From Sulfolobus sp. E5-1-F (GTDB taxonomy: Archaea > Thermoproteota > Thermoprotei_A > Sulfolobales > Sulfolobaceae): a DNA stretch of 64,000 bases. The notes below the pieces were generated by a model. It was not told where the DNA came from, ran no database searches, and was given only the letters and a program-made list of their open reading frames with translations. Shown one piece after another: positions 61,142-63,546 of the stretch. Both the position numbers and the translations under genes were made by a program. The DNA is taken from NCBI RefSeq assembly GCF_009601705.1, contig NZ_CP045687.1:1462001-1526000 (forward strand), in the 5' to 3' direction. How positions within the stretch are numbered: the first letter of the stretch is position 1; each line of letters starts with the position of its first letter.

Positions 61142-62205
61142 AAAAAGTTGGATTTCTTGTAAATCCGTATGCTGGTGCAGGTGGAAGAATAGGGAGAAAA
61201 GGTAGTGATGAGTTGTACCTCGAGAACCCTGAAATATCAAGTAGAGTTAGTAGATTTTTGGTCAGAGCCCCGGAAGATGCTATCTATGTAACACCAAAGC
61301 TAAAAATGGGAGAAATATATTTTATTCAAACAAAATTGAAATATGAAACTATATCCATAGGTGAAAGGGAAAAAACTACTAGATATGATACAATCAATTC
61401 TGTAAAAGAGTTTGTAAGAAGAGGGGTAGATATTATTGTATTTGTTGGTGGAGATGGGACAGCAAGGGATGTATTTGAAGGACTTCAAGGGGCGCAAATA
61501 CCAATTTTAGGAGTTCCTAGTGGCGTAAAAATGCATAGTGGTGTTTTCGCTAATACACCAGAGGCCGCTGCAATATTATTAACAAAATTTTTACATAATG
61601 AAGCAAAAATTGTAACAGAAGAAATTCTAGATATTGATGAAGAAGCCTATAGAAAAGGAACATATTCTGTTAAATTATATTATATAGCCCTTACGATTAG
61701 CAGTAATAATTTACTAACTCCAAGTAAGGAGGAAATACAATATAGTGAAGATGAACTAGAAGAAATCGCAGATTATGTAATGGATAACATGGATGATAAT
61801 ATAACCTATATCATGGGTCCTGGGAGTACTATAAAATATATAGAAAGAAAACTAATGATCAATACTCCATTTTTAGGGATTGATATAGTTAGAGGAAAGA
61901 AATTAATAAAGGGAAATGTTAATTATTTCGATTTAATCAATTTAACTGGGGAGTTAAAGATATTGCTCACCCCAATAGGCAAGCAAGGATTTCTAATAGG
62001 GAGGGGAAATCTAGAACTAGGACCGGCGTTCTTAAGAAGAGTAAAAAAGGATGATCTTATCGTAGTCTCTACTCTTTCTAAGCTTTACACTATTAACTGT
62101 TTTAGAATTGATACGGGGGATGAGAATTTAGATAAGCTCTTTTCAGGTGTCTACAATGTCATAGTAGGTTACAACAAATTTTACGCTATTAAAACTTGTC
62201 AATGA
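61135..62205 (+). CDS. ATP-NAD kinase family protein (COG3199-like)
   Basis: A 356-residue protein with the NAD kinase/diacylglycerol kinase fold: N-terminal GFLVNPYAGAGGRIGRKGSDE and the nucleotide motif IIVFVGGDGTARDVFEG, then ILGVPSGVKMHSGVFANTPEAA. COG3199 proteins are predicted ATP- or polyphosphate-dependent NAD kinases, but the phosphate acceptor is unproven. Coupled by overlap to the upstream winged-helix gene. The 84-bp spacer before whiP carries a palindrome that may act as its terminator hairpin. Confidence 0.8.
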   Translation: MLKKVGFLVNPYAGAGGRIGRKGSDELYLENPEISSRVSRFLVRAPEDAIYVTPKLKMGEIYFIQTKLKYETISIGEREKTTRYDTINSVKEFVRRGVDIIVFVGGDGTARDVFEGLQGAQIPILGVPSGVKMHSGVFANTPEAAAILLTKFLHNEAKIVTEEILDIDEEAYRKGTYSVKLYYIALTISSNNLLTPSKEEIQYSEDELEEIADYVMDNMDDNITYIMGPGSTIKYIERKLMINTPFLGIDIVRGKKLIKGNVNYFDLINLTGELKILLTPIGKQGFLIGRGNLELGPAFLRRVKKDDLIVVSTLSKLYTINCFRIDTGDENLDKLFSGVYNVIVGYNKFYAIKTCQ

Positions 62206-62289: not shown

Positions 62290-63030
62290 ATGAGTGAGGA
62301 CTATCAAAGAGATGATATAGAGGCCATAGCACAGCAGATAAGTGAGGAGGAGAAGCCAGGTAAGGAGTCACCTAGATCCAAATTGGTTGAAGCAATACTA
62401 CTCCTCCTTTACGCAAGACCATTAAGAACAGCTGAAATTGCAACTAATTTAGGTTACGAAACTAAATATATAAGTAGCTATCTCAGTTATTGGAAGAAGA
62501 AAGGTTTGGTTTATCAAGAAGGGGGAAGATGGCACTTAAGTAGGAGAGGAGAGAATATAGCTAGAGATATCATCGAATCACAAAACAATTCTAAATTCAA
62601 AGAATATTTATTACTTGCTAAGCAAGTACTAGAAAGTGAAAAAGTTTACCAGACAAAAAACAACAAAGCAGGGAAAAGAGATGACAAAAAAGCACAAGAA
62701 GTTTTGTGGTTTATTGAAGAAAAAACCAGTAAGGAGAACAAAAAACAACAAAAGTCTAATCCAACGGATTGTATAAAGGAGATTTTGGATAAGCTTGATG
62801 ATGATGAAAAAGAAATACTAAGCTATCTATTAAACAAATATAAAGAGTGGGGAACAACTTACATCTATCTCGATCAGCTTCAAGAAGAAATGAAAGCTGA
62901 TACTAGTTGGTTATTTAGAGTGCTCAAAAACTTACAAATTAAAAGGCTCCTATACGTATATCAAGATCCTAAAATGGGAGTCAGAATAGGACTTTCGAAA
63001 ACTCTAAAAGAAAAGCTATCTTCTTGCTAA
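62290..63030 (+). CDS. whiP: Winged-helix initiator protein WhiP (oriC3 initiator)
   Basis: A 246-residue protein with two winged-helix domains: residues about 30-95 ([45 protein letters not shown], given as positions 30-75) and about 165-240 ([27 protein letters not shown] and following), joined by a Lys/Asn-rich linker. This matches the Sulfolobales WhiP protein, a distant Cdt1-like factor that drives the third replication origin instead of an Orc1/Cdc6. It is leaderless. It sits directly beside a symmetric AT-rich spacer proposed here as oriC3. Confidence 0.8.
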
Positions 63031-63050
63031 CTTTCTCTTTCCCTTTTGTT
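63031..63050 (+). terminator. Pyrimidine-rich terminator after whiP
   Basis: The 20 bases right after the whiP stop (CTTTCTCTTTCCCTTTTGTT) are almost all pyrimidine with several T runs, the usual form of an archaeal terminator. Confidence 0.45.
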
Positions 63051-63175
63051 ATTATTTACTACTACTATATACATAGATTATATTATGGGGTATTGATTTG
63101 TATGTAAAAATTATACAAACTGTTTGCTTTAACATATAATATGATAAAGTCACATTAGTAGTAGTAGTAATCTAT
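63051..63175. other. Candidate replication origin oriC3 (symmetric AT-rich spacer beside whiP)
   Basis: The spacer between whiP and the next gene is strongly AT-rich and nearly mirror-symmetric. The outer arms TTACTACTACTA (63056-63067) and TAGTAGTAGTAA (63159-63170) are perfect inverted copies. Inner arms TTTGTAT (63097-63103) and ATACAAA (63113-63119) are also inverted and almost share the same centre (about 63108-63113). A third palindrome CAAAC-T-GTTTG spans 63116-63126. The space between holds AT-only stretches suitable for unwinding. Orc-type ORB elements are not obvious. Assignment rests on this symmetry and the adjacent initiator gene. Confidence 0.6.
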
Positions 63176-63219
63176 TTAATCTTTGTACTAGAAGTTATAG
63201 CAAGTAGGAGGGATAATTT

Positions 63220-63546
63220 ATGTCAACTAATAAATCAGTGAAAATGTCTGAAGATGAGATAAACAAAGCATTGGCAAAAGCCGAAAAAGAGGCGGAAAAA
63301 AAGGATCATAAGAGACAATGGATAGAACGTATGATAAAAAGCGCTAAAACTTACTACAAGTTATGTCCTTATTATGATAAGAAGAATAATAAGTGTTTTC
63401 TTACATTGGGCGATAAATGTCAGCGCGATGGTAAATATGAGACTTGTCCAATATTTATTTCATTCTTAGATAATAAGTATCAAGAAATTGTTAATAAGAA
63501 GAAAATGTTACCAATGGATTTTCAAGATTTAGCGTTAATGACTTAA
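63220..63546 (+). CDS. Small conserved-type protein with four Cys, unknown function
   Basis: A 108-residue protein beginning with a charged helix (about 8-45, many Lys/Glu/Ala) followed by a Cys module: Cys at about 51, 60, 68 and 77 (LCPYYDKKNNKCF, DKCQRDGKYETCP), spaced 8, 7 and 8 apart, which could bind zinc or an Fe-S cluster. The ATG has GGAGGG seven bases upstream and a TATA-like CTATTTAAT about 45 bp upstream, right at the edge of the proposed origin. Function unknown. Confidence 0.6.
   Translation: MSTNKSVKMSEDEINKALAKAEKEAEKKDHKRQWIERMIKSAKTYYKLCPYYDKKNNKCFLTLGDKCQRDGKYETCPIFISFLDNKYQEIVNKKKMLPMDFQDLALMT

Follow-up and report, generated by a model that had tools for sequence, protein, structure and literature searches.

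To our knowledge, WhiP is one of the few cellular replication initiators that are neither Orc1- nor DnaA-type ATPases. In Sulfolobus islandicus and S. solfataricus, it drives the chromosomal origin oriC3 and stays bound there; it has also been reported bound at all three origins, and the oriC3 of S. solfataricus is footprinted by all three Orc1 proteins too. A short element, ucm, is present at all three origins and is bound by the protein UBP, which also interacts with MCM; this UBP site is required at oriC1, where mutation of ucm abolishes origin activity (PMC12141716) and where UBP has been proposed to help the departure of MCM. A 2013 study (PMC3718332) describes three 'nORB' sites around ucm at oriC3 and, at oriC1, Orc sites named 'C2' and 'C3' that are palindromic. 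Outside Sulfolobus, the second origin of Aeropyrum pernix has been equated with the WhiP-dependent oriC3 (PMC10769869). We found no statement in the accessible literature about how WhiP picks its origin.

We analysed a window of 64,000 nucleotides from Sulfolobus sp. E5-1-F, corresponding to positions 1462001-1526000 of its single 2.54-Mb chromosome. It contains the following features (window coordinates, with strand where one applies):

61942-61957: palindrome TTAACTGGGGAGTTAA (TTAACYGGGGRGTTAA) within the NAD-kinase gene that precedes whiP, a candidate Orc1 'C'-type site belonging to the wider origin region.
62290-63030, + strand: whiP-type gene of 246 aa with a predicted winged helix at each end (open frame and structural model).
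63031-63219: spacer, almost certainly the oriC3 core, 25% G+C (22% between the arms).
63056-63067, - strand: left arm TTACTACTACTA, candidate WhiP box, conserved and inverted relative to the right arm.
63097-63103: TTTGTAT, the inner left arm of the original prediction; present, at chance level and not conserved, and not considered a feature.
63110-63120, + strand: ucm ATTATACAAAC, a UBP-binding site by sequence match (identical to 11 bp of PMC12141716).
63156-63171, + strand: right arm TAGTAGTAGTAGTAAT, candidate WhiP box, which contains the arm originally placed at 63159-63170.
63172-63179, + strand: TATA-like box CTATTTAA of the 108-aa gene, abutting the right arm and conserved in Sulfolobaceae.
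63220-63546, + strand: gene of 108 aa adjoining the origin in Sulfolobaceae (tblastn).

Judging from its sequence and surroundings, the spacer at 63031-63219 beside whiP is almost certainly the third origin of this chromosome, oriC3. This identification, already made in the original prediction, is well supported by the WhiP-type gene alongside, the presence of ucm, the conserved architecture, a change in GC skew and the spacing to the other origins. The whiP-type gene ends at 63030 and adjoins the spacer. Its product was modelled with two H-H-H-E-E segments at residues 28-83 and 171-235 separated by a low-confidence linker, in agreement with its earlier description as a double winged-helix protein, and the gene is conserved in the order, with relatives in 106 of the 197 genomes sampled from it (a few of them weak). 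A PDB fold search with this model retrieved generic winged-helix matches only, none of them at E <= 0.001, and no specific match to Cdt1. The name WhiP rests on context, namely the double winged helix, the single copy, the origin neighbourhood and the published linkage. No WhiP was found on plasmids, phages or viral contigs among the sequences searched. One PHROG family without assigned function, phrog_30448 (246 aa), matches across the entire WhiP-type protein (E ~1e-162); perhaps it derives from a chromosomal stretch mistaken for a provirus.

At the chromosome scale, we computed GC skew on stretches totalling 664 kb around the three origins. Over 90 kb, it is -0.06 to the left of the spacer and +0.13 to the right, with the sign change near the spacer, whereas the cumulative minimum of the 264-kb stretch lies 9 kb to the left, which counts against this position. 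The three candidate origins are spaced by ~0.45 and ~0.86 Mb and a cdc6 gene lies 18 kb from whiP; the origin spacing and the cdc6 linkage match those of S. islandicus LAL14/1. More generally, the oriC3 of S. islandicus, S. solfataricus and S. acidocaldarius has the same whiP-type neighbour, a ucm, no ORB, a linked cdc6 gene at 18 kb and the same distances to the other two origins; we found no difference and consider the spacer its ortholog. For S. acidocaldarius, oriC3 has been placed at about 1,200 kb (PMC5809426) and the distances given in PMC12361140 imply about 1.225 Mb; in genome G042 of the comparison set, which may represent this species, whiP is located at 1.1975 Mb. The spacer also lacks the classic ORB and mini-ORB, as is characteristic of oriC3: its best match to the Orc1 ORB consensus of PMC4164010 was 12/20, equal to the shuffle mean, versus 20/20 at the oriC1 of this genome. 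An Orc1 ORB-type origin similar to oriC1 was discarded, since an ORB with the TCCA-GAAA core and G-string does not occur in the spacer. This is, then, an already known kind of origin, and what is new here is the deep conservation and the uniqueness of its TAGTAG pair, together with the correction of the inner arm to ucm.

The outer repeat consists of TTACTACTACTA at 63056-63067 and TAGTAGTAGTAA at 63159-63170, complementary at 12 of 12 positions and 91 nt apart. The coordinates and letters originally given for this pair and for the inner one (63097-63103 and 63113-63119) were exact, although the repeats are inverted and not mirror-symmetric, and the DNA between the arms, described as almost pure A/T, is AT-rich with 22% G+C. 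When the spacer was shuffled 300 times with its dinucleotides preserved, 6 of the shuffled sequences (~2%) contained a perfect inverted repeat of at least 12 bp; judged from this single sequence alone, the outer pair is uncommon but not extraordinary, and thus only suggestive. For the inner pair, 7-bp inverted repeats with a loop of 3-19 nt are expected 0.9 times per shuffle, which is chance level. What identifies the outer arms as a real element is their conservation across relatives and not these single-sequence statistics.

We compared whiP loci across 70 genomes. Alignment of the spacers 3' of whiP showed conservation of the outer arms, but not of the inner left arm or of the CAAAC-T-GTTTG palindrome. 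In the 11 aligned spacers, all from Sulfolobaceae, there are just three conserved islands: TACTAC(A/T)AC, the left arm; TTATACAAAC, the ucm; and GTAGTAGTAGTAAT, the right arm with the TATA-like box. Unsupervised 8-mer counts over 31 Sulfolobaceae likewise ranked ucm and the right arm as the strongest signals, the right arm being better conserved than the left in this family. In a search anchored on the best ucm and requiring both arms at >=7/9, the inverted arrangement was found in 29 of 31 Sulfolobaceae and in 17 of 23 genomes of two other families (2/2 in f4, 15/21 in f6), as opposed to 0/31 and 2/23 (0/2 in f4, 2/21 in f6) when the arms were exchanged as a control, and to averages of 1.5/31 and 0.7/23 with shuffled flanks; these genomes are related and the counts are not independent events. 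The arm pair is also highly specific to this place. A strict pattern searched in 197 genomes matched 13 Sulfolobaceae genomes, in each of them solely at the whiP spacer, and its reversed version gave zero matches in the same 13; outside Sulfolobaceae the matches were scattered and none was at whiP. Besides the left arm, exact TAGTAGTAGTAA occurs four times elsewhere in the E5-1-F genome, always within reading frames. Conservation has its limits: at one f6 locus (L050) ucm and the right arm are degenerate, and family f8 keeps WhiP and mostly ucm but has no TAGTAG arms, so that the box, on this genome comparison, is not universal. Most of seven f8 loci (L062, L066, L067, L068, L071, L077 and L079) share another inverted repeat, roughly GGTATTCTTGCCACGGGAATACC, ~50 bp after whiP, which is possibly an exchanged initiator box.

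The element between the arms could be identified by comparison with PMC12141716, which gives a ucm oligonucleotide and a mutated control: the 11 bases changed in the latter are ATTATACAAAC, present without mismatch in our spacer. Because ucm occupies exactly 63110-63120, the inner right arm ATACAAA and the CAAAC palindrome are pieces of the UBP site, and the conservation of ATACAAA follows from its inclusion in ucm. Of the two candidate WhiP sites originally put forward, the TAGTAG arms thus pass every available test on the sequences compared, whereas TTTGTAT/ATACAAA fails, with a left half that is not conserved and a right half that lies inside ucm. We discarded the latter as initiator sites, as it amounts to half a ucm plus a chance match, and the palindrome, not conserved among the aligned spacers, as a feature. 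A ucm matching at >=9/10 is found in the whiP 3' spacer of 31/31 Sulfolobaceae, 40-60 bp from the right arm (mostly 43-46). The E5-1-F genome has five exact copies, including the one at the oriC3 spacer and one beside a cdc6-type gene near 0.29 Mb; the oriC1 copy (1978605) has one mismatch. Between the arms, ucm lies on the opposite strand in families f4 and f6 compared with f1, f3 and f8. Its orientation has apparently not been fixed in evolution, while the arm-ucm-arm nesting was preserved.

The other two origins of this genome offer parallels. In the oriC1 unit ORB3-DUE(ucm)-ORB2, as in this spacer, an AT-rich region with ucm near the middle lies between inverted initiator boxes; there, the boxes are ORBs and the adjacent initiator gene is orc1-1, instead of TAGTAGTAGTAA and whiP. 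At oriC2 (G000:C1:292427-292524), inverted TTTCCTCT and AGAGGAAA lie ~45 bp on either side of an exact ucm (position 292472); the layout is that of oriC3, with other boxes. All three origins, therefore, have inverted boxes around ucm, with a different box at each, and on this basis we attribute the TAGTAG arms to WhiP as the initiator of this origin. Exact TAGTAGTAGTAA was found at neither oriC1 nor oriC2. The similarity extends to the second origin of A. pernix in that whiP 3' spacers of family f6 also carry ucm and the arms, although with ucm inverted, the arms further apart and often a palindrome after the right arm.

Our preferred interpretation is that the spacer is the core of a WhiP-dependent oriC3, where WhiP most likely binds the inverted arms around ucm in a unit resembling that of oriC1; from the sequence comparisons and the analogy with oriC1, we estimate its probability at roughly 75%. 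It builds on the observed elements, their arrangement, conservation and uniqueness in the genome and the lack of an Orc1 box, and takes from the literature the dependence on WhiP and the occurrence of ucm at all origins. The TAGTAG arms are best read as WhiP boxes that would play the part of ORB2 and ORB3 around the central ucm. WhiP made from the adjacent gene would bind the two inverted TAGTAGTAGTAA arms, which flank a ~90-bp AT-rich putative unwinding region with UBP on ucm near its centre. The two WhiP complexes, facing each other, would load a pair of oppositely oriented MCM helicases, the AT-rich stretch between the arms would melt and UBP may help MCM to leave. In this way, oriC3 would operate as the ORB3-DUE(ucm)-ORB2 unit does at oriC1, the initiator box being another one. 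PMC3718332 reports three nORB sites, versus the two conserved arms found here; these sites may coincide with the TAGTAG arms or be distinct from them.

The strongest alternative left is that the spacer is oriC3 but that WhiP recognises something else, the arms being read instead by a nucleoid-associated protein or an Orc1 paralogue. Although we regard it as rather unlikely, this possibility gains from the reported footprints of all three Orc1 proteins at the oriC3 of S. solfataricus, and the observations that fit least well with WhiP boxes also speak for it: WhiP is reported at all three origins, yet oriC1 and oriC2 have no exact TAGTAGTAGTAA, and f8 has WhiP without the arms. Against it, the arms are unlike ORB, are paired only beside whiP and follow whiP across families. 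A broader version of the WhiP-box interpretation, in which TAGTAGTAGTAA would be the WhiP box in several families and all Sulfolobus origins would consist of inverted boxes around a UBP-bound ucm with box and initiator swapped, seems to us evenly balanced between right and wrong. The plan shared by these origins suggests that origins, when captured, conform to a general scheme of the host with UBP at its centre. The conserved inverted box pair around ucm also makes the specificity of WhiP for oriC3 open to linker scanning, as done at oriC1.

We consider it much less probable that the right arm serves the 108-aa gene as an operator or promoter flank, the left arm being incidental. In Sulfolobaceae, the right arm does abut the conserved TATA-like box, which would act as promoter of the downstream gene, and is the better conserved of the two; nevertheless, the left arm is conserved too, and the pair is unique in the genome. 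Moreover, the arms are not merely a downstream-gene promoter because arms and ucm are kept even where, as in some relatives, an unrelated convergent gene follows: a proteasomal-type AAA ATPase at two f6 loci (L052 and L055) and a PCMT methyltransferase at one f3 locus (L083). Promoter overlap is a possible additional role of the right arm. The 108-aa gene always adjoins the spacer in Sulfolobaceae and is absent from the loci of other families (tblastn); its product has a cysteine-rich centre and matched no Pfam or NCBIfam family, and its putative promoter overlaps the origin. An RNA structure or transcription terminator after whiP, suggested by the intergenic position and the inverted repeats, is hardly credible given that 91 nt separate the arms here and a longer stretch separates them in f6, that the strand of ucm changes from family to family, as suits a site in double-stranded DNA, and that the spacer has no Rfam match up to E = 1. 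Likewise, a chance TAG microsatellite, despite the low complexity of the repeat and the few shuffles with an equally long one, is refuted by cross-family conservation in fixed order and orientation.

The palindrome TTAACTGGGGAGTTAA in the NAD-kinase gene is retained, with no more than one mismatch, at a similar position in most Sulfolobaceae. Its glycine column is GGG in 24/27 sequences, compared with 2-11 of about 30 elsewhere, and its glutamate column is GAG in 24/24, which indicates that this stretch is under unusual constraint at synonymous codon sites. With at most one mismatch it has 13 copies in the genome, five of them no more than ~3.3 kb from an origin; the copies cluster at all three origins, with one beside an ORB at oriC1 and another, with one mismatch, at G000:C1:1526395-1526410, which is 395 nt past the end of the window and ~1.3 kb from ucm on its opposite side. 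In several f6 genomes the palindrome adjoins the right arm. The TTAACYGGGGRGTTAA copies are candidate Orc1 'C'-type sites that may flank oriC3, and we suspect that they correspond to the C2/C3 sites of PMC3718332. Five TTAACYGGGGRGTTAA copies (<=2 mismatches) are grouped within 4 kb at G000:C1:1612647-1616550, a region that looks like an integrated element, with a 1058-aa ATPase matching phrog_7035 and several small winged-helix genes; there, the palindromes may serve the element as regulatory sites or as an origin of its own.
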